Shown here piece after piece: positions 20,970-60,178 of a stretch of 64,000 nt of DNA. The notes under the pieces were generated by a model that did no database searches, had not been told where the DNA came from, and worked only from the letters and a program-made list of their open reading frames with translations. Positions within the stretch are counted from its first letter, which is position 1. Every line of letters starts with the position of its first letter. A program made the position numbers and the translations under genes. The DNA comes from Natronorubrum tibetense GA33 (GTDB lineage: Archaea; Halobacteriota; Halobacteria; Halobacteriales; Natrialbaceae). The stretch covers positions 689,133-753,132 of the forward strand of contig NZ_KB913017.1 in the NCBI RefSeq assembly GCF_000383975.1. Direction: 5' to 3'.

Positions 20970-21776
20970 ATGGAGGTCGCGTCGGACAGAAGCAAACCCC
21001 AGGTCCACGAGTACATGACGCGCGACGTGGTGACGGTCGCCCCCGACGAAACCGTCGGCGACGTCGCGGCGCGGATCGCCGAAAGCGACGAGCACAGCGG
21101 CTTTCCCGTCTGCGAACGGCGACGCGTGGAGGGGTTCGTCAGCGCCCGCGATCTATTGCTGGCCGACGACGACGAGCCGATTTTCAAGGTGATGACGACG
21201 GATCTACTGGTCGCCCACCCCGATATGAAGGTGACCGACGCCGCTCGCGTCATCCTCCGATCCGGCATCCAGAAGCTGCCGGTCGTCGACGACGCCGGGA
21301 ACCTCGTGGGGATCATTTCGAACGCCGATGTCATCCGCAGTCAGATCGAGCGCGCCACGCCCGAGAAGGTGGGGAAACTGATGCGAACGCTCGAGCAGAT
21401 CCACAACACCGAACTCGAGCAGGAACGACGGACGGTCTCGCTCGCGGAACTCACGCCGACGCAGGGCCGGGTCTACGCCGACGAACTCGAGGGGCGACGG
21501 TACGAACTCGAGCACGGACTGGCCGAGCCGTTGGTGGTCATCGACAACGGCGGCACGAAGTTGCTCGCCGACGGCCACCACCGCGTCATGGCGTCGGACC
21601 GGTTGGGGATCGACGAGATGGACGCCTACGTCATCGTCGTCGATCAGGCGATCGAACTCGGGATGGCTGCCACCGCGGAAAAAGAGGAACTCGAGCGGAT
21701 CGACGACATCGAAATCGTCGACTACGCCCGCCACCCGCTCGTCGAGACGACGAAGCGGTTGCAGTCTGGGAAGTAG
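20970..21776 (+). CDS. CBS-pair protein with ParB/Srx-like (SerK-like) C-terminal domain
   Basis: 268 aa. Residues about 10-130 are two CBS motifs (VHEYMTRDVVTVAPDETVGDVA and KVMTTDLLVAHPDMKVTDAA), which usually bind adenosine nucleotides. Residues about 155-260 fit the ParB/sulfiredoxin fold: TPTQGRVYADELEGRR, EPLVVIDNGGTKLLADGHHRVMAS with the DGHHR motif. Automatic annotation tends to call this ParB partition protein, but the archaeal free-serine kinase SerK shares this fold, so a nucleotide-dependent enzyme is a real alternative. No parA is nearby. Confidence 0.8.
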   Translation: MEVASDRSKPQVHEYMTRDVVTVAPDETVGDVAARIAESDEHSGFPVCERRRVEGFVSARDLLLADDDEPIFKVMTTDLLVAHPDMKVTDAARVILRSGIQKLPVVDDAGNLVGIISNADVIRSQIERATPEKVGKLMRTLEQIHNTELEQERRTVSLAELTPTQGRVYADELEGRRYELEHGLAEPLVVIDNGGTKLLADGHHRVMASDRLGIDEMDAYVIVVDQAIELGMAATAEKEELERIDDIEIVDYARHPLVETTKRLQSGK

Positions 21777-24108: not shown

Positions 24109-24783
24109 GCGAGACCGTTCGTCCGGTGGGACCGAGGGTGTTGCGTTTTCGCCGCGAGTTCGGAAATCGGTGCTCGAGTCGCCGGGCAATCGTGTTCGAC
24201 AGATGAAATACCAAAGTCGTTTGGAGCCACTGGTATTTCCGGCCACAGTATACGTCTGCACACGGCAGTTCGAGGGGGCCGGACCGGTACCTTCACTGCC
24301 GTCGCACTCCCACTTCACCCCCACCCCCACCCCATCCCCCGGGAACTGCCCGGTTCGTGTCTGTGGGTGTGCATCCTCCGACGGCCACGATCGGGCCCGA
24401 TAGCTGTAGTGCTCGGACTCGCCGTCACACCGTTTTGCATCTCCTCTCGTCCCCACAGCCTCGTGTAGAGCATCCGTAGACTCCGATGCGACCGACTCCG
24501 ACGACGAGAGAACGCGACGACCGCTCGCCGTCGTCCGCTCTCTCGTTCGCACTCGAGTAGTCGGCCGTCATTGGCGACGGCTACCACGTCCGACAGATAT
24601 AGTAGCCACTGAAAGTCAATGCACACCTGATCGCACGGCGGCTGTGCGATCAGGTGTACATCGTTTCAGTTGTTACTATAGTAGCTAGGTCTCCGCATCG
24701 GATCCGTGACTGTGATCGACCCGTGGCGGTTCGTCGATGCAGGTGCGGTTCGTCGCCGCTGGACGATTCGTCGCTGACCGGCG
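24109..24783. other. 675-nt intergenic region with C-rich tract and MITE
   Basis: No supported gene. It contains the C-tract cluster at 24318-24340 (four runs of four or five C on the plus strand, hence four G-runs on the minus strand) and the MITE at 24597-24682. The rest shows only short, Arg/Ser-rich frames unlike halophile proteins. Confidence 0.6.
24597..24682 (+). mobile_element. MITE copy 1 (about 86 bp, TIRs around a perfect palindrome)
   Basis: The ends are imperfect inverted repeats: CTATAGTA-type left end running into GCCACTGAAA, and a right end that reads CTATAGTAACAACTGAAA on the other strand (16 of 18 equal to the consensus left end). The centre is a perfect stem, CACCTGATCGCAC at 24624-24636 against GTGCGATCAGGTG at 24644-24656 with a 7-nt loop. 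No coding capacity. A related copy lies inverted at 58028-58115. Confidence 0.75.
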
Positions 24784-51649: not shown

Positions 51650-52114
51650 CTATTCGGCTCCGTCGTCGGCCTTCGTCTCCGGAACGACGACGACCGGAAC
51701 CGAGGCCTCTCGAACCAGTTGGTCGGTCGTACTTCCGAGGAGCACGTCCGCGACTCGGCTCCGTCCCGTTCGGCCGACGATCACCATGTCGATCGCGTGC
51801 TCGTCGGCGTAGGTGAGGATCACAGTGGCGGGACGACCGCGACGGATCGCACTCTGAATCTTGACATCCCGATCTCCGGCGGTCGCAACGAGATCGTCGA
51901 CGAGTCGTTCCCTCGTCTGTTGGAGTTCGCCGATGTCGTCAACACCGAAGTGCATCGGATTCGTCGTCGCATCGACGACGGCGAGCACGTGAACGGCTGC
52001 ACCGGTTTGTTCTGCGAGTTTCAATGCGCGCTCGAGCGCCTCGTCGGCGGCGGCGCTTCCGTCGGTCGCGACGAGGATCGATCGAATCGATCCGGCCTGG
52101 TCGTCTCCGGACAT
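51650..52114 (-). CDS. Universal stress protein (UspA family), ATP-binding type
   Basis: 154 aa. SILVATDGSAAADEALERALKLAEQTGA is the Usp start, and the ATP motif G-x2-G-x9-G-(S/T) is kept in VGRTGRSRVADVLLGSTTDQLV. It ends VPVVVVPETKADDGAE. First of a Usp gene block that runs to 57.9 kb. UspA proteins respond to stress by nucleotide binding; individual roles in haloarchaea are unknown. Confidence 0.93.
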   Translation of the reverse strand: MSGDDQAGSIRSILVATDGSAAADEALERALKLAEQTGAAVHVLAVVDATTNPMHFGVDDIGELQQTRERLVDDLVATAGDRDVKIQSAIRRGRPATVILTYADEHAIDMVIVGRTGRSRVADVLLGSTTDQLVREASVPVVVVPETKADDGAE

Positions 52115-52167: not shown

Positions 52168-52587
52168 TTATCGAACGACGACGACGGGAACCGTCGCCCG
52201 ACGAACGACGTTCTCCGCGACGCTCCCGAGCAGGAGTCGCGAGACGCCCGCTCGACCGTGACTCCCTAACACGATCGTATCGTACCCCTCGTCAGCTGCC
52301 CGTTCGACGATGACGTGGTCCGGTTTTCCGGTGTCGAGTTCCGTGCGTAGTTCGTGGCCGCTCTCGGCCGCGGTTTCCGCTGCTTCCTCCAAGACCGTTT
52401 GTCCGCTCTCTTCGTCGACGACGGGAACCCTCTCTTCGGTCTCCGTAAACGCCTCCCGATAGCCGTCCGGAACCGGAACGACGTAGAGGGCGGTAACGTC
52501 GGGATCGGTAAATTTCTCGAAAGCGTACTCGAGTGCCTTCTTGGCCGGCGGTGAGCCGTCGTACGGCACCAGGATTCGTTCGGTCAT
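52168..52587 (-). CDS. Universal stress protein (UspA family), ATP-binding type
   Basis: 139 aa. ERILVPYDGSPPAKKALEYAFEKF begins the fold; LGSHGRAGVSRLLLGSVAENVVRR gives the full G-x2-G-x9-GS motif. It is very like the Usp at 56467-56892 (ALEYAFE, PDGY.AAF, GSHGR.G.SR.LLG.VAE.VVRR), so the two are recent paralogues. A TATA-like GTATTATACC lies upstream on the minus strand (about 52609-52618). Confidence 0.93.
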   Translation of the reverse strand: MTERILVPYDGSPPAKKALEYAFEKFTDPDVTALYVVPVPDGYREAFTETEERVPVVDEESGQTVLEEAAETAAESGHELRTELDTGKPDHVIVERAADEGYDTIVLGSHGRAGVSRLLLGSVAENVVRRATVPVVVVR

Positions 52588-52940
52588 AGCCGTTTCTACG
52601 GCCGCATCGGGTATAATACTCCCATCTCAACGAATCGCGTACCGTCACCAGAATCGACGTGAACTCGAACTATCGGATTGGACATCAGTGCCGACAGAGA
52701 CACGGATAGAAACCGATGTCAAACGAAGCAACAAAACCCGTATGCGTCGCGGACTTGCTTCTCGTTTTCGAGCATCACAACCGATCGTCGAATCGGATCG
52801 ATAGTGGTTTGTCATTTCTATCACGGTGCGAGAACGTCCGATCGACTTTCTCGTCGAGAGTGTCTCGGCAATCCCGCGAACCGACTCGTCTCACGCCGAG
52901 TCCCCCTCGAAGTTATTTCGCAGGGAGTGGATCAGCACGT
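52588..52940. other. 353-nt divergent promoter region between two Usp genes
   Basis: No gene supported. It holds the minus-strand promoter near 52609-52618 and a plus-strand TATA-like GTTATTT near 52911-52917, about 27 nt before the ATG at 52941. Confidence 0.5.
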
Positions 52941-53438
52941 ATGACGTTCGTCGTTCCATTCGACGGGTCAGCACTCGCAGAAGCTGCCCTCGTCAGAGCA
53001 TCGGAGTACGGAGCCGCGCTGAACGAAGACATCACGGTCGTGACCGTCGTCCCCGAGCGAAAACGATACGCACGGGAGAAAGGATGGATCGACGCCGACG
53101 AATCGTTCGACGTCGATGCAACCGTTGAACGACTTCGGGAGCGAGTCGCGGAACTCGTGCCGGACGCGTCGTTCGAATACGAGCGAATTCGCGAGTTTCC
53201 ACCCGAACGACGGATCGCAGACCACATCGAACGACTGGCACTGGCACAGGATCCGAGCGTCGTCTTCCTCGGAAGCGATAACGTCGGCCGCGTCGTCACC
53301 CCGCTGACGAGCGTCGGCGTCCACATCGCCGCAGAGGAATCCTACGACGTGTTCGTCGTTCGCCACCGGACGCCCCCGAAACTCGAGGCCGTCGATCCGC
53401 ACGACGAGTTCTATCGGGAGACCGGATCGGACGAGTGA
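52941..53438 (+). CDS. Universal stress protein homologue with degenerate nucleotide site
   Basis: 165 aa. TFVVPFDGSALAEAALVRASEYGAAL starts the fold. Where ATP-binding Usps have G-x2-G-x9-G-(S/T), it reads FLGSDNVGRVVTPLTSVGVHIAAEE, so the phosphate loop is changed and ATP binding is doubtful. Residues 60-100 hold an Arg/Glu-rich helix (ATVERLRERVAELVP). It ends with an acidic tail. Transcribed away from the Usp at 52168. Confidence 0.85.
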   Translation: MTFVVPFDGSALAEAALVRASEYGAALNEDITVVTVVPERKRYAREKGWIDADESFDVDATVERLRERVAELVPDASFEYERIREFPPERRIADHIERLALAQDPSVVFLGSDNVGRVVTPLTSVGVHIAAEESYDVFVVRHRTPPKLEAVDPHDEFYRETGSDE

Positions 53439-53546: not shown

Positions 53547-53999
53547 ATGTATGACCGAATCCTCCTCCCGACCGACATGAGTCCCGGCGTCGATCAGGCC
53601 ATCGACCACGCCATCGACGCTGCGACTCGATACGATGCCGAACTACACGTGCTGTACGTCGTCGACACCGACGCGTACAGCTCCTACCCCGGCGACGAGT
53701 ACGTCCACGAGTTCGAAGGACTCGAGCACGCACTCGAACAGGCCGGTCGCGACGCGGTCGACGAGATCGCCGATCGAACCGGCGAGGCAGCCGTTCCAAC
53801 CGAGACCGAGATCCGCCACGGCGTCCCCCACGAAGAGATTCTCGCGTACGCCGACGAGGCGGACATCGGACTCACGGTTCTGGGATCGAAACAGCGATCC
53901 GGCGAGTACCGTCGATTGCTCGGAAACGTTGCCGAGCGGGTCGCTCACATGAGCGAGCGTCCGGTGACGATCGTCAAAACACCCATTGCCAAGGAGTGA
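53547..53999 (+). CDS. Universal stress protein homologue, altered ATP motif
   Basis: 150 aa. YDRILLPTDMSPGVDQAIDHAIDAAT and a C-terminal VLGSKQRSGEYRRLLGNVAERVAHMSERPVTIVKTP. The G-x2-G of the ATP loop is broken (GSKQ) though the second part LLGN is near normal, so it may be a non-ATP-binding Usp. Good leaderless promoter. Confidence 0.9.
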   Translation: MYDRILLPTDMSPGVDQAIDHAIDAATRYDAELHVLYVVDTDAYSSYPGDEYVHEFEGLEHALEQAGRDAVDEIADRTGEAAVPTETEIRHGVPHEEILAYADEADIGLTVLGSKQRSGEYRRLLGNVAERVAHMSERPVTIVKTPIAKE

Positions 54000-54068: not shown

Positions 54069-54551
54069 TCAGCGCGAGTCGTCCCCAGCTTTGAAACCGG
54101 GCGGCAGCCCCTGGTGTTTGACGCCCGTTTGCTCGCGGATCCGGAACTCGTAGAGTTCGACGTCCGCCGACAGCGACGCCGTTTCGATGAGATCCGGCCG
54201 CCACACCTCGCTCATCGTGTCCTCGAGTTCGTCCCACTCCGCCTCGGGAACGGTCGTGAGCGCGCCCGTCAGGAGGACGCTTTGCCAGTTGTACATCGTA
54301 TCGACCTTGTAGACGAGGAAGCTCGCGGTATCCGTCTCCTCGCTCATCGTCCCTTTTCGGCTACTGGACCCGAGCAGGTACGTGAAATAGAGGCGTTCCT
54401 CGCCATCGTATCCGAACGAGAGCGGCAGCAGGTACGGTTCGTCGGCGTCCGGAAGGCCGAGGACGCCGACCTTCTGGCTCGACAGAAACTGCTGAATTTC
54501 TCGATCGTTCATCGCTTCCAGCCCGTACTCCCGTAGTTCGTCAATCGACAT
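54069..54551 (-). CDS. Pyridoxamine 5'-phosphate oxidase-like FMN-binding split-barrel protein
   Basis: 160 aa. MNDREIQQFLSSQKVGVLGLPDADEPYLLPLSFGYDGEERLYFTYLLGSSSRKGTM is the typical PPOX/split-barrel start (CxGxLA-type position here VGVLGLP), followed by NWQSVLLTGALTTVPEAEWDEL. Members bind FMN, F420 or haem. The cofactor is not evident from the sequence. It is convergent with the Usp gene on its right-hand neighbour's opposite strand and lies in the stress block. Confidence 0.87.
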   Translation of the reverse strand: MSIDELREYGLEAMNDREIQQFLSSQKVGVLGLPDADEPYLLPLSFGYDGEERLYFTYLLGSSSRKGTMSEETDTASFLVYKVDTMYNWQSVLLTGALTTVPEAEWDELEDTMSEVWRPDLIETASLSADVELYEFRIREQTGVKHQGLPPGFKAGDDSR

Positions 54552-54790: not shown

Positions 54791-56359
54791 TCAGGTCGCC
54801 CGTCGTCGACGAACGTACTGTCCGAGAAATGCGAGCGCGAAAAGTACGCTCACTCCCTCGAGGGGGAGTTCGTGAAACGTCAGGATCGCTGCAGTGACGA
54901 ACAGAGAGCCAGCGACGATGGCGTAGCCGACGGCTGGGTCCCCACCACTGGTCGACTCGACCGGATCGGTTCTGACGACGAGTTCGCCGCGCTCGAGTTG
55001 GCCGAAGACGGTGTCGAATCTCGCGGGCGCTCGTGCGAGGACGGGTACCGACTCGCGGAGGTCGGACCGTACGTCCGCGAACAGCGCCTCGAGTTCGCTC
55101 TCGATAAAGCCGTAGTCGACGAGAAACGAACGCGTAACGGTAATGAAGTCGAACTGCGGATCGAGACTCCGACAGACCCCTTCGCCGACCGTTCCAACTC
55201 GGATGAGCAACATCACGTTCGGCGGGATTCGAAACGGGAAGTCGTCAAGCATCGAAAGCAACTCCGTGATGATCGCGTGCCAGGTGATGTCGTCACGGCC
55301 TTCGAGGTTCTCGATCACCAGTTCGAGCACCCGTCGGACCGCGACCCGATCGACCGTCGGCTCGAGGACCTCGAGCGCGATGAGGGTGTTCAACAGCCCG
55401 TCGACGTCACGACGGACGAGCGTCCGGTAGAGATTCGTGATATCGTCCTGTTCTTGCGCCGTCAGTCGTTGACTCATGCCGTAGTCGTAGATGACCAGCC
55501 GCCCTTCGTCGGTCACGGCGAGGTTTCCCGGGTGCGGATCGGCGTGGAACACGCCGTCGACGAGCCCCATCTTCAGGTACGTCCGGGCGATGAGCGTCGC
55601 CATGTCGGTTGGCGTGACGCCAACATCCGCGAGGGCCCGATCGTCGGTGATCTTCGTCCCCTCGACGTACTCCATCGCGATCAGACGATCCGAACACAGT
55701 TCGAGGTGCGTACTGGGGACGATGACTCGATCGTCGTCGGTGAAGTTCTCCTCGATCTCCGCCATGATCGACGCCTCGCGTTCGAAGTCCAGTTCCTCGA
55801 GGATGATCTCCTCGAAGTCGTCGGCGACGTTCTCGATCGAGTAGCGCTGGCCCTCGTCGGCGAACGTGGCGAGCAGCGGGACGAGTCCCCTAATTACTCG
55901 GAGGTCGCGCTCGATTATCGAGTCGAGACCCGGCCGCTGAACCTTCAGTGCGATGCGCTCCCCCTCGTACTCGACGGTATAGACGAACGCGAGCGAGCCG
56001 CCGGCGACCGGCTCGAGTGTCTCGAGGTCGAGTTCGTCGCCGAGTTCTGCCTCGACGACGGTCATCGGATCGCCGCCCGCATCCTCCGGAACCTCGTCTT
56101 GTAGCGCCGTGAACTCCCTGACGTACGTCGGCGGGACGAGATCCGGACGCGTCGACAAGACCTGCCCGACCTTGATGAACGCCGGGCCGAGTTCGAGCAT
56201 CGTTTCGGTGAGTTGCTCGGCACGCTCCCGGTGAACCGTCGTCGAAACCTGTCGCGGCGGACCAAACAAGAGAAAGCGCCGGCGATCCCTGAGAAACGCG
56301 AGCGCGAGGGGAAAGAAGCTGACGAGCACCTGCAGATAGCGAAGATAATAGCCCTTCAT
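54791..56359 (-). CDS. ABC1/UbiB-family atypical kinase with C-terminal membrane helices
   Basis: 522 aa. The KxGQ motif is FIKVGQVLSTRPDLVPP, the Lys of the kinase core RIALKVQRPGL, the catalytic loop VFHADPHPGN, and the metal motif YDYGMS. The A-rich loop that family members usually have (AAAS) reads EPVAGGSLAFVYTV here. Two C-terminal helices (about 480-515) anchor it in the membrane. In bacteria and mitochondria relatives support quinone synthesis; haloarchaea use menaquinone, so that role is not assured. A Usp gene lies upstream on the same strand, 107 nt away. Confidence 0.92.
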   Translation of the reverse strand: MKGYYLRYLQVLVSFFPLALAFLRDRRRFLLFGPPRQVSTTVHRERAEQLTETMLELGPAFIKVGQVLSTRPDLVPPTYVREFTALQDEVPEDAGGDPMTVVEAELGDELDLETLEPVAGGSLAFVYTVEYEGERIALKVQRPGLDSIIERDLRVIRGLVPLLATFADEGQRYSIENVADDFEEIILEELDFEREASIMAEIEENFTDDDRVIVPSTHLELCSDRLIAMEYVEGTKITDDRALADVGVTPTDMATLIARTYLKMGLVDGVFHADPHPGNLAVTDEGRLVIYDYGMSQRLTAQEQDDITNLYRTLVRRDVDGLLNTLIALEVLEPTVDRVAVRRVLELVIENLEGRDDITWHAIITELLSMLDDFPFRIPPNVMLLIRVGTVGEGVCRSLDPQFDFITVTRSFLVDYGFIESELEALFADVRSDLRESVPVLARAPARFDTVFGQLERGELVVRTDPVESTSGGDPAVGYAIVAGSLFVTAAILTFHELPLEGVSVLFALAFLGQYVRRRRAT

Positions 56360-56466: not shown

Positions 56467-56892
56467 CTACCGCACGACGACGACGGGGAGTGGCGACCGG
56501 CGAACGACGTCCTCCGCGACGTCGCCGAGTAGCACTCGCGAGAGTCCCGTTCGGCCGTGACTCCCGACGACGATCGTGTCGTACCCTCCGTCGAGGGCGT
56601 GCTCGATTAGGCGGTGATCGGCTTTTCCCGTCTCGATCGCCGTCTCGAGGTCGCGACCGTGTTCGGAAGCGAGTTCGGTCGCTCCCTCGAGAATATCCAT
56701 CGCGTGTTCGCGGGCTTTCTCGGTAACGGGTGGCTGTAGCTCCGGTCCCTCGAAAGCGGCAACGTACCCATCCGGTATTTGAATGATGTGTACCGCCGTG
56801 ATCTCGGATTCGGGAAACGTCTCGAAGGCGTACTCGAGGGCGTCGTTCGATGGGTCAGAACCGTCGTATCCGACGAGAATGCGGTCGGCCAT
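56467..56892 (-). CDS. Universal stress protein (UspA family), ATP-binding type
   Basis: 141 aa. DRILVGYDGSDPSNDALEYAFETFPESE opens the fold; VGSHGRTGLSRVLLGDVAEDVVRRSPLPVVVVR holds the ATP loop with GD in place of GS at its last position. Close paralogue of the Usp at 52168-52587. Confidence 0.92.
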   Translation of the reverse strand: MADRILVGYDGSDPSNDALEYAFETFPESEITAVHIIQIPDGYVAAFEGPELQPPVTEKAREHAMDILEGATELASEHGRDLETAIETGKADHRLIEHALDGGYDTIVVGSHGRTGLSRVLLGDVAEDVVRRSPLPVVVVR

Positions 56893-57005: not shown

Positions 57006-57881
57006 CTACGGAAGCAGTCGCCGCAGACGCGAGGGAACTGGATCGTACCGCTTCGCCAGGATGACCGTGCCGGCAGCGTGTCGGCCGACCGATTCGGAGA
57101 TGGTTCCCAGCAGGGCGCGCTGGACGAGACCGCCCCTCGAGACGCCGAGAACGGTCACGTCGTGCCGGGTCGTCCAGTCGGTGATCGTCCCCGCGACGGT
57201 ATCGCTCTCGACGAGTGCGCGCTCGACCGACTGCCCGTCGTCGAATTCGGCCGCCGCGTCGGCGAGCAGCGCCTGCGCTTGCTCGCGTGAGTGTTCAGGA
57301 TCGTCCGACTCGCGGAGGTGTAACAGGGTGACCGACGCGTCGTTTCGCCGGGCGATCGAGGCGGCGGTCTCCGTGGCGAAGCCGCTGTGCGGACCGTCGG
57401 CGACCGGCACGAGAATCGAATCGACATCGTCCGGTCTCGGCGTCTTGATCCGCTGGACGAGGACATCACAGTCAGCGTCGCGCAGCACTCTGTCCACGTG
57501 AGATCCCAAGATGACGTCCTTCCGGGGCGGTCGTCCGCGCCACCCTATCAGAATCGCGTCGACGTCGTACTTGTCGACGGCCCCGACGATCCCCGTCGAG
57601 ACGCCCCGAGCCAGACGAATCAGTTTGTCGGCCGGGATTCCACGGGACTCGACTCTCTCCGTCGCCTCCGCGAGCGCGTCCTCGACGTCGTCCTCCAGCA
57701 GGTATCGACGGCCGTCCTGCAGGGACAGCTGTGGCGGCACTTCGAGAACGTACACGAGAAGGATGCGGTACGACCGATCCGCTGCGATATCGATCGCCGT
57801 CTCCAGCTGGCGGTCGGCGGTTTCAGCGTTCGCGATCGGGACTAGCAACGTGTCGTCGATATCCGATGTCTCGTCGGGCAT
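57006..57881 (-). CDS. Tandem universal stress protein (two Usp domains)
   Basis: 291 aa. Domain 1 (about 8-145) begins DDTLLVPIANAETADRQLETAIDIAAD and keeps a loop IGWRGRPPRKDVILGSHVDRVL close to the ATP consensus. Domain 2 (about 150-285) begins DSILVPVADGPHSGFATETAASIARR; its loop LGVSRGGLVQRALLGTISESVG has a changed first half. The C-terminus ends basic, RLRRLLP. Two-domain Usps often have one ATP-binding and one degenerate half, as here. Confidence 0.92.
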   Translation of the reverse strand: MPDETSDIDDTLLVPIANAETADRQLETAIDIAADRSYRILLVYVLEVPPQLSLQDGRRYLLEDDVEDALAEATERVESRGIPADKLIRLARGVSTGIVGAVDKYDVDAILIGWRGRPPRKDVILGSHVDRVLRDADCDVLVQRIKTPRPDDVDSILVPVADGPHSGFATETAASIARRNDASVTLLHLRESDDPEHSREQAQALLADAAAEFDDGQSVERALVESDTVAGTITDWTTRHDVTVLGVSRGGLVQRALLGTISESVGRHAAGTVILAKRYDPVPSRLRRLLP

Positions 57882-58027
57882 ACTCTTCAGCGTAGCTATC
57901 GTCCCCCATCGTTATAATATTCGGTTACGTACAGTACTGGGATACCGCGGTCGGTGCGCGCTCGAGCGCGATCGAAATTCGAGGCTCCCGAAACCCTGAC
58001 TCCGGTTAGCGGATGCCCGAGCCTGTT

Positions 58028-58115
58028 ACTATAGTAACAACTTGAACTGTTTACACACTGATCGCATAGCTGTCGTGCGATTGGGTATGCACTGACTTCC
58101 AGTGGCTACTATAGT
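58028..58115 (-). mobile_element. MITE copy 2 (about 88 bp), inverted relative to copy 1
   Basis: Both ends carry ACTATAGT. Read on the minus strand it runs ACTATAGTAGCCACTGGAAG... then ...AATCGCACGACAGCTATGCGAT... and ends GTTGTTACTATAGT, base for base the layout of the copy at 24597-24682 with scattered changes and a less perfect central stem. It lies between a Usp gene and the CBS gene, 17 nt past the latter's stop. Confidence 0.75.
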
Positions 58116-58131: not shown

Positions 58132-59343
58132 TCATTCGCTCAGCCACCAGCCGTAGACGTTCGCCGCCTCCTCGGGATCGGCCCGCTTCTTGCTCCGGCC
58201 GTGGGTTTTCCCCTCGAGTATCTGGCGTTCGATCGCGTTCAACGCGAGCGAGAACGCGTGTTTGTCGCCGTAGCCTTCGTCCGAGGCGACGAACAGTCCC
58301 TTGTCCGTATAGAGTCGTACTCTGGCCAACACGAGCGGAATGCCGCGAAGTCGCTCCTTGTGCTCCTTGAAGTGCACCTTCGCCTCGAGCACGCGCATCT
58401 GTCGATACTTGCGGGTCACGGATTCGATCCGCTCGGCGAGTCCCTCCCGAGTCGTGTCCGTCATGAGCTCGCTTCCGAACACCTGGACCGGGAGCTGTCG
58501 GTCTTCGGACCAGGTCAACGACTCGAGCAGATCCGTCTTCGTGACGATGCCCACGAGCGAGCCGCGGTCGTCGGTGACGATCGACGAGGAGGCACCGAAC
58601 TCGAGCATCGTCTCGAGCACGTCGTCGAGCGTTTCGTCGAGTCTCGTCGTCCCGAGCGTGTCGACCATCACGTTCCCCACCGGCAACTCGAGGAGGTCGG
58701 CGCTTTCGCCCTCGCGGGCACCGAAGCCGCCGTGGTTGCCGCCGGTGCTCGCGTCCATGTGTCCGTCGGGGTCGCCACCCTGTGAGCGTTGCAATTCTCT
58801 CGTGACGAACTCGAGGACGTCGTAGAGACTGACGATTCCGACGACCTCGTCGGTAGTCCCTTCGGCGACGACGGGCAGGTGCTCGATGCGTTCGGTTCTA
58901 AACGTCGCGAGTGCCTTGCCTAGCGAGGTCGTCGACTCGACCGTCACGATTTCCGTCGTCGCGACGTCCGCCGTCTCGAGTACGGAGAGGAACGGCTGGA
59001 TCGTTCGGAGGAGGTCGTCGGTCCGAACGACGCCGACGAGCGCTTCATCCTCGAGAATCGGCAACAGTCTGGTGTCGCCCGCGATCATGAGCCGCGCGGC
59101 CTCACGAACGTCGTCGTCGAGGGTAACCGAGGGGACGGCTCGGACGAGCGAACGAGCCTTCCGCGACGTCTTTTCGTGTGAGGAGAGGACGTCTCGCCGT
59201 GTGACTACGCCCTCGAACTCACCGTCGCGGGTGATGAGCAGCGCCTTCCGGTCTGCATTTTCGAACGAGCCGCGAAGTTTCGAGACCGGCGTCGTTTCGT
59301 CGTACGTGTCGAACTCCCGATCGACGATATCTTTGATATCCAT
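58132..59343 (-). CDS. Four-CBS-domain protein with C-terminal ribosome-hibernation-factor-like (HPF/S30AE) domain
   Basis: 403 aa. Four CBS motifs: DIVDREFDTYDETTPVSKLR, SLVRAVPSVTLDDDVREAA, DVATTEIVTVESTTSLGKAL, and VGNVMVDTLGTTRLDETLD, each followed by a LLPIxx/GVVxxxD-type strand. Residues about 315-385 (VTRKYRQMRVLEAKVHFKEHKERLRGIPLVLARVRLYTDKGLFVASDEGYGDKHAFSLALNAIERQI) have the strand-strand-helix order of HPF/RaiA (IEL, G..A....DLY-x-AI-x-x-A-x-x-KLxRQL). ATG 59343 is used; an earlier one (59397) would add 18 residues. CBS-HPF proteins in archaea have been linked to ribosome dimerisation/hibernation. Confidence 0.8.
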   Translation of the reverse strand: MDIKDIVDREFDTYDETTPVSKLRGSFENADRKALLITRDGEFEGVVTRRDVLSSHEKTSRKARSLVRAVPSVTLDDDVREAARLMIAGDTRLLPILEDEALVGVVRTDDLLRTIQPFLSVLETADVATTEIVTVESTTSLGKALATFRTERIEHLPVVAEGTTDEVVGIVSLYDVLEFVTRELQRSQGGDPDGHMDASTGGNHGGFGAREGESADLLELPVGNVMVDTLGTTRLDETLDDVLETMLEFGASSSIVTDDRGSLVGIVTKTDLLESLTWSEDRQLPVQVFGSELMTDTTREGLAERIESVTRKYRQMRVLEAKVHFKEHKERLRGIPLVLARVRLYTDKGLFVASDEGYGDKHAFSLALNAIERQILEGKTHGRSKKRADPEEAANVYGWWLSE

Positions 59344-59494
59344 GATCGAGAGACGGGGCGAAGGGTGATACCTGTTGTCGACAGTTCCCACGTCCATGTT
59401 GTATACGCAACACTCAACAGTCGACGGTCACCGGCCCACACGCGACGACCGCTGACCGATACGCTCAAATGGTCGCTCTCGCAACGAACGGCTC

Positions 59495-60178
59495 ATGGGA
59501 ACCCCGCTCGAGAGCCAGACGGAGCAAGCCGCGGAAGTCGTCGACCGCCTCGAGGAGGCGTATCCGGATTCGACCATCTCGCTGCGGTACTCGAACCGAC
59601 TGGAGCTGTTGATCGCCGTCATCCTCTCCGCGCAGTGTACCGACGAGCGCGTGAACAAGGAGACGAAGACACTCTTCGAAAAGTACGACGGCGCGGAAGA
59701 CTACGCTAACGCGGCCCAGGACGAACTCGCCGAGGACCTGAACTCGATCACCTACTACAACAGCAAGGCCGAGTACATCCGGACCTCCTGTGAGATCATC
59801 CTCGAGGAGCACGACGGCGAGGTGCCGGACACGATGGACGAGCTGACGGAGCTGTCGGGCGTCGGTCGGAAGACGGCGAACGTCGTCCTCCAGCACGGCC
59901 ACGACATTGTCGAGGGAATCGTCGTCGACACGCACGTCCAGCGACTTTCGCGGCGACTCGGGCTGACCGAGGAGCAGCGACCGGAGGCGATCGAGCAGGA
60001 GCTGATGGAACTCGTCCCCGAGGGCTACTGGCAGCAGTTCACCCACCTCTGTATCGACCACGGGCGCGCGATCTGCGACGCACGAAACCCCGACTGTGCG
60101 GACTGCGTGCTGGCCGACATCTGTCCCTCGGAGAAAGGTGACAGCGAGATCGATCTCGCCTCGGGCGAGCACTGGTAG
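59495..60178 (+). CDS. nth: Endonuclease III
   Basis: DNA glycosylase/AP lyase removing oxidised pyrimidines. 227 aa with LLIAVILSAQCTDERVNK, the helix-hairpin-helix LSGVGRKTANVVLQHGHD containing the catalytic Lys, VDTHVQRLSRRLGL with the catalytic Asp, and the 4Fe-4S ligands CDARNPDCADCVLADIC (C-x6-C-x2-C-x5-C). Full length. Divergent from the CBS-HPF gene. Confidence 0.96.
   Translation: MGTPLESQTEQAAEVVDRLEEAYPDSTISLRYSNRLELLIAVILSAQCTDERVNKETKTLFEKYDGAEDYANAAQDELAEDLNSITYYNSKAEYIRTSCEIILEEHDGEVPDTMDELTELSGVGRKTANVVLQHGHDIVEGIVVDTHVQRLSRRLGLTEEQRPEAIEQELMELVPEGYWQQFTHLCIDHGRAICDARNPDCADCVLADICPSEKGDSEIDLASGEHW

Follow-up and report, generated by a model that had tools for sequence, protein, structure and literature searches.

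HibA is an archaeal ribosome hibernation family described in Nature Communications in April 2026 (PMC13324472). Its members have four CBS domains followed by an HPF/RaiA domain. The C-terminus sits in the mRNA/tRNA channel of the 30S subunit, the CBS module occupies the tRNA sites of the 50S subunit at three positions, and a loop enters the peptidyl-transferase centre; translation is inhibited and single 70S particles are stabilised (PMC13324472). Deletion of HibA in T. barophilus lowers stationary-phase 70S by about 60% and delays regrowth. P. abyssi HibA binds AMP (Kd 12 uM), ADP and ATP, and neither AMP nor ATP clearly altered its ribosome binding; no HibA-bound 50S was seen in P. abyssi. 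Halophile copies are not discussed in that work (PMC13324472). H. volcanii HVO_2384, a CBS protein, was reported in 2025 to have a hibernation-factor domain (PMC12607858); the domain is C-terminal, as in the haloarchaeal protein presented here, and the mass of 42.5 kDa suggests that HVO_2384 is the shorter core paralog without the long loop and tail discussed below. The concept is thus not new. New here are an accessory class of paralogs, its loop and tail, its universal stress protein (Usp) surroundings and a pointer to complexes with 50S and aIF6. CBS modules are also present on the ribosomes of Pyrobaculum calidifontis (Dri) and Methanosarcina acetivorans (SriA-D) (9e7f, 9znf-9zni), as with HibA, but Dri has two CBS modules and no HPF domain (PMC13324472), and Dri and Sri are different CBS families.

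The gene is found in a window of Natronorubrum tibetense DNA, i.e., the whole stretch of 64,000 nt that was analysed. An intact open reading frame at positions 58132..59343 of the minus strand encodes 403 aa plus stop. Translation from an ATG further upstream, at 59397, would yield 421 aa; the start is taken at 59343 because all aligned relatives begin at this methionine of the motif MDIxDI. Residues 1-278 (58510..59343, minus strand) comprise a four-CBS module, with four stretches detected by Pfam PF00571 (E 2.6e-34), in agreement with the four motifs seen in the sequence-only reading. The signature G-h-h-[S/T]-x-x-D is intact in CBS1, CBS3 and CBS4; in CBS2 the S/T position is occupied by R. 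Comparison with the 95%-identical N. texcoconense orthologue gives dN 0.025 and dS 0.23 (dN/dS about 0.1), which shows that the gene is under purifying selection.

The C-terminal part consists of an HPF/RaiA domain (residues 286-377, 58213..58488, minus strand) and a basic tail, GRSKK...YGWWLSE (residues 378-403, 58135..58212, minus strand), that is typical of accessory paralogs. The domain had been proposed from the letters alone, with a profile search and a structure prediction as the means of checking it. The profile search falls short: PF02482 (HPF/S30AE) scores 19.3 bits on the C-terminal part and 15.9 bits on the full length, below the curated gathering cut-off of 23.7 bits, which a second paralog in the same genome, copy B, clears with 24.3 bits. 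The structural prediction agrees with the proposal. An AlphaFold2 model of residues 279-403 (pLDDT 81, pTM 0.75) displays the order b-a-b-b-b-a, and its best 29 PDB matches by Foldseek are all of HPF, YfiA, protein Y, RaiA or RafH type. As modelled, the C-terminus of the window protein has the HPF fold. The full-length model, made with four close sequences, is poor (pLDDT 61, pTM 0.32), so that only the C-terminal model is relied upon. Entries 9l96 and 9sr9 are absent among the Foldseek matches listed, and nothing is concluded from this.

P. abyssi HibA (9sr9_H) matches the window protein end to end with an E value of 3.5e-31 (query 3-378, chain 6-371). A stronger match, E 1.2e-100, is to a 406-aa 'CBS domain-containing protein' present in PDB entries 9l96, 9l98, 9l9c and 9l9v. 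The two archaeal-specific insertions of the HPF domain (PMC13324472) both have counterparts, SAL / ELM and KFRGVHL / RLRGIPL. Residues E330, R333, G334, R343, T346, E356, G359 and R373 are unchanged in 82 of 82 haloarchaeal rows and in P. abyssi. The G-h-h-[S/T]-x-x-D signature is practically invariant across rows in CBS3 and CBS4, in agreement with the published nucleotide site, and is not kept across the family in CBS1 and CBS2. By sequence, the window protein belongs to the HibA family and has every family feature that a sequence can reveal; the hibernation-factor identity put forward in the sequence-only reading is supported by these matches. The likeness to HibA of P. abyssi and T. barophilus (PMC13324472; 9sr9 and related entries) extends to the four CBS domains with HPF/RaiA, the HPF insertions, the CBS3/CBS4 signature and a loop at the CBS3-CBS4 junction. 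The differences are a loop that is 18 residues longer and has the motif GGFGAREG, an SKK...GW tail, the presence of three paralogs in one genome, and a surrounding block of Usp genes.

The long loop comprises residues 184-216 (58696..58794, minus strand) and corresponds in position to the 'PTC loop' of P. abyssi. Measured between fixed anchors, the CBS3-CBS4 junction is 49 residues in the window protein, 56 in the 9l96 protein and 31 in core copies and P. abyssi; the loop of accessory paralogs is 18-25 residues longer than that of the core. GGFGAREG (residues 205-212, 58708..58731, minus strand) is shared, with small variations, by nearly all accessory paralogs when these are aligned; none of the 20 core copies has it, nor does P. 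abyssi HibA. The long loop would be expected to enter the peptidyl-transferase centre, to judge by where the P. abyssi loop lies. The tail shows a similar distribution, with K385 and K386 in 58 of 62 accessory rows, G398 and W399 in 61 of 62, and neither pair in core rows.

The three HibA paralogs of N. tibetense are the window copy, an accessory copy B (C1:3556041, 44% identity to the window copy) and a core copy (C1:3786211, 38% identity). At least one HibA match is present in 193 of 194 Halobacteria genomes. Accessory copies, counted as matches above 265 bits, number 75 in 63 of the 194 genomes, and a single genome may have as many as three; seven genomes have copies with 66% or more identity to the window protein. 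A few genomes, e.g., G033 and G034, have an accessory-type copy alone, so that 'core' here means near-universal and not universal. In a tree made by a quick method, with SH-aLRT support only, the core copies, which were sampled, form one clade (SH-aLRT 98). The accessory copies include clade C, with the window copy (nine rows), clade D (17 rows) and clade B, which contains the 9l96 protein (30 rows), each with a support of 100. Accessory HibA is often borne on megaplasmids, with 42 plasmid records that match.

Directly downstream of the HibA gene is a tandem universal stress protein gene (57006..57881, minus strand, PF00582 E 1.2e-33), followed by a further Usp gene (56467..56892, minus strand, E 2.7e-30), an ABC1/UbiB-type atypical kinase (54791..56359, minus strand, PF03109 E 3.1e-52) and a pyridoxamine 5'-phosphate oxidase-like gene (54069..54551, minus strand, PF12900 E 1.1e-18). 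Beyond these are Usp genes at 53547..53999 (plus strand, E 1.2e-32), 52168..52587 (minus strand, E 6.7e-35) and 51650..52114 (minus strand, E 5.4e-32), and a divergent Usp gene of uncertain start (52716..53438, plus strand; match 52944-53363, E 2.7e-7) that was detected by genome search. On the other side, endonuclease III (nth; 59495..60178, plus strand, PF00730 E 1.5e-25) is a divergent neighbour, and Pfam also reveals an AP-endonuclease-2-like gene nearby. The six Usp genes, ABC1 kinase and repair genes listed in the sequence-only reading are therefore all present, five of the Usp genes by Pfam and the sixth by genome search. An orthologue of the tandem Usp gene, of 58-87% identity, is directly downstream on the same strand at four other loci of clade C (L069, L073, L074, L037), where the PNPOx-like gene also recurs; the ABC1 kinase recurs at L070 and L071, which likewise belong to clade C. 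Of the loci of this clade that were compared, L069 alone has nth beside HibA, and it is of the same genus.

Some other features of the window may be described. A perfect palindrome, GTTACTATAGTAAC, is located at 58025-58038 between the HibA and tandem Usp genes. The exact sequence occurs once in the genome, and a copy with one mismatch is at 24672-24685. Near-matches are about as frequent as those of a reversed control, and the palindrome was rejected as a recognisable regulon operator; the fold of its region is unremarkable (z -1.96). A second CBS protein with two strong domains (E 1.9e-13 and 2.1e-12) is encoded at 20970-21776, and the gene just before it begins, by eye, like a TrkA-type NAD-binding protein.

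A comparison of loci across Halobacteria shows a Usp gene within 6 kb in 24 of 60 accessory loci (74 Usp frames), 2 of 20 core loci and 3 of 20 random positions. Accessory loci against core plus random (5 of 40) give a Fisher p of 0.003; this is no more than suggestive, since the proximity tests were picked after the Usp block was seen and related loci were treated as independent. By clade the proportions are 5/7 for C, 14/30 for B and 4/17 for D, and clade D alone is not enriched (p 0.43). In N. tibetense there are seven Usp domains within 7 kb of the window copy, nine near copy B and none near the core copy; counts of seven and nine are attained by 0.9% and 0.24%, respectively, of random windows. 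These numbers are suggestive of a non-random link between the accessory class and Usp genes. The neighbourhood of core loci is a different one; it is conserved between them, and one of its members is a RadB-like gene, named by sequence impression. A gene-content analogy is found in mycobacteria, where the HPF-domain hibernation factor RafH is induced together with other dormancy genes in the DosR regulon, which includes Usp (PMC10799931). RafH is bacterial and has no CBS fusion, and the co-regulation shown in mycobacteria is conjectural for the window locus.

Other families also recur near accessory HibA. Copy B (L003, G000:C1:3556041-3557255; surroundings 3550537-3580160) is in a dense Usp island, with 19 Usp domains within 25 kb. 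A DUF2267-like protein, so named by eye, is beside accessory HibA at L076, L077, L099, L101, L108, L121, L123 and L126. An alpha/beta-hydrolase-like family (eight loci) and P-type ATPases are likewise recurrent, and a small unnamed protein family is near HibA copies that are mostly of clade D (L078, L079, L083, L085, L087, L092, L093 and L107).

The chain 9l96_a is 100% identical to the product of a gene on plasmid pHME505 of Haloferax mediterranei (L169), WP_004060604. With the N. tibetense uL14 as query, the best PDB match is a chain in 9l94, 9l95, 9l96, 9l98, 9l9c, 9l9j, 9l9k and 9l9v. The CBS protein is present in four of these eight related ribosomal entries (9l96, 9l98, 9l9c, 9l9v), and since it shares entries with a haloarchaeal uL14, this close homologue of the window protein is ribosome-bound. 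Queries with uS12, uS7 and eS4 of N. tibetense gave no chain in the eight entries, which therefore seem to contain models of the large subunit alone. The anti-association factor aIF6 is present in 9l9c, 9l9j and 9l9v, and together with the CBS protein in two entries, 9l9c and 9l9v; SBDS, searched with an N-domain query, was not found. A search of one literature collection found no paper on the H. mediterranei structures or the Sri proteins. WP_004060604 is a full-length homologue that shares the loop motif and the tail, and is encoded near Usp genes; it differs in that it belongs to accessory clade B and is plasmid-borne, and the proteins deposited along with it are those of the large subunit alone, with aIF6 in two cases. 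H. mediterranei has a second plasmid-borne accessory HibA on pHME132 (L170), which adjoins Na/Ca antiporter and Mg transporter genes and is without annotated Usp neighbours. From the chain lists of the entries, which are silent on the residues resolved and on any unmodelled 30S density, we infer that an accessory halophile HibA may be able to hold on to free 50S.

The window gene can be regarded with good confidence as an accessory, probably stress-deployed, ribosome hibernation factor of the HibA family. The longer loop and the stress-protein setting suggest a stress-specific spare hibernation factor. It is rather unlikely, but a case to be weighed seriously, that it is a redundant duplicate of the core paralog, a 70S guardian exactly like P. 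abyssi HibA with no stress- or subunit-specific role. The same architecture and shared invariant residues are what such a copy would have, and one copy suffices in most Halobacteria, as accessory copies are in only 63 of 194 genomes. However, the accessory clades are separate from the core, their near-invariant loop motif and tail are absent from core copies, and their surroundings are Usp-rich where those of the core are not; persistence under purifying selection also argues for a job of its own. The CBS module may instead be a regulatory subunit or transcription regulator, similar to HhpR or AMPK gamma, with an HPF-like domain that no longer binds the ribosome. This is very improbable. AMPK gamma and other CBS proteins do dominate the full-length Foldseek matches, and HhpR is among the weak CBS matches in NCBIfam, but Pfam finds no DNA-binding domain, the HPF domain retains its fold and invariant residues, and ribosomal proteins accompany the close homologue in its PDB entries.

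Dimerisation of ribosomes had been suggested in the sequence-only reading, which cited CBS-HPF-type factors as reported dimerisers in other archaea. Bacterial long HPF dimerises ribosomes by way of an extra C-terminal domain, and HibA too carries a second module. This precedent is not supported, as CBS-HPF proteins are not known to dimerise ribosomes. The 30S-30S dimeriser aRDF (PF0560) is reported as exclusive to the Pyrococcus group, with no mention of CBS, and P. furiosus is stated to be without HPF homologues (PMC11724365). The ribosomes that carried HibA itself were single 70S particles (PMC13324472), and each H. mediterranei entry has one CBS chain and one uL14. On these grounds dimerisation by the window protein was rejected, and it is scarcely credible as an explanation.

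For the preferred reading, an accessory HibA hibernation factor, binding to the ribosome, a block of translation and the binding of AMP would be carried over from the published homologues. An adenine nucleotide, with AMP preferred, would sit between CBS3 and CBS4, expression may be stress-specific and shared with the Usp block, and the bound nucleotide may have a regulatory effect. That the ATP level is coupled to a shutdown of translation, as proposed for this locus, is unproven: neither AMP nor ATP clearly affected the ribosome binding of P. abyssi HibA (PMC13324472). A tentative extension, to which we give somewhat less than an even chance, is that the accessory haloarchaeal HibAs are a functionally distinct class that guards free 50S, in which the long Gly-rich GGFGAREG loop would plug the peptidyl-transferase centre so tightly that the protein stays on a 50S which aIF6 keeps apart, and the genes would be deployed from Usp stress islands. 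If true, this would represent subunit storage, as opposed to the preservation of 70S by P. abyssi HibA.

These findings bear on how halophilic archaea last through long periods of dormancy in brine, and H. volcanii, H. mediterranei and relatives of Natronorubrum can be grown in culture. With the paralog split, one can test if archaea have separate hibernation factors for routine and for stress use, if storage of 50S is the task of one class, and if Usp islands serve as dormancy modules in the manner of mycobacteria.
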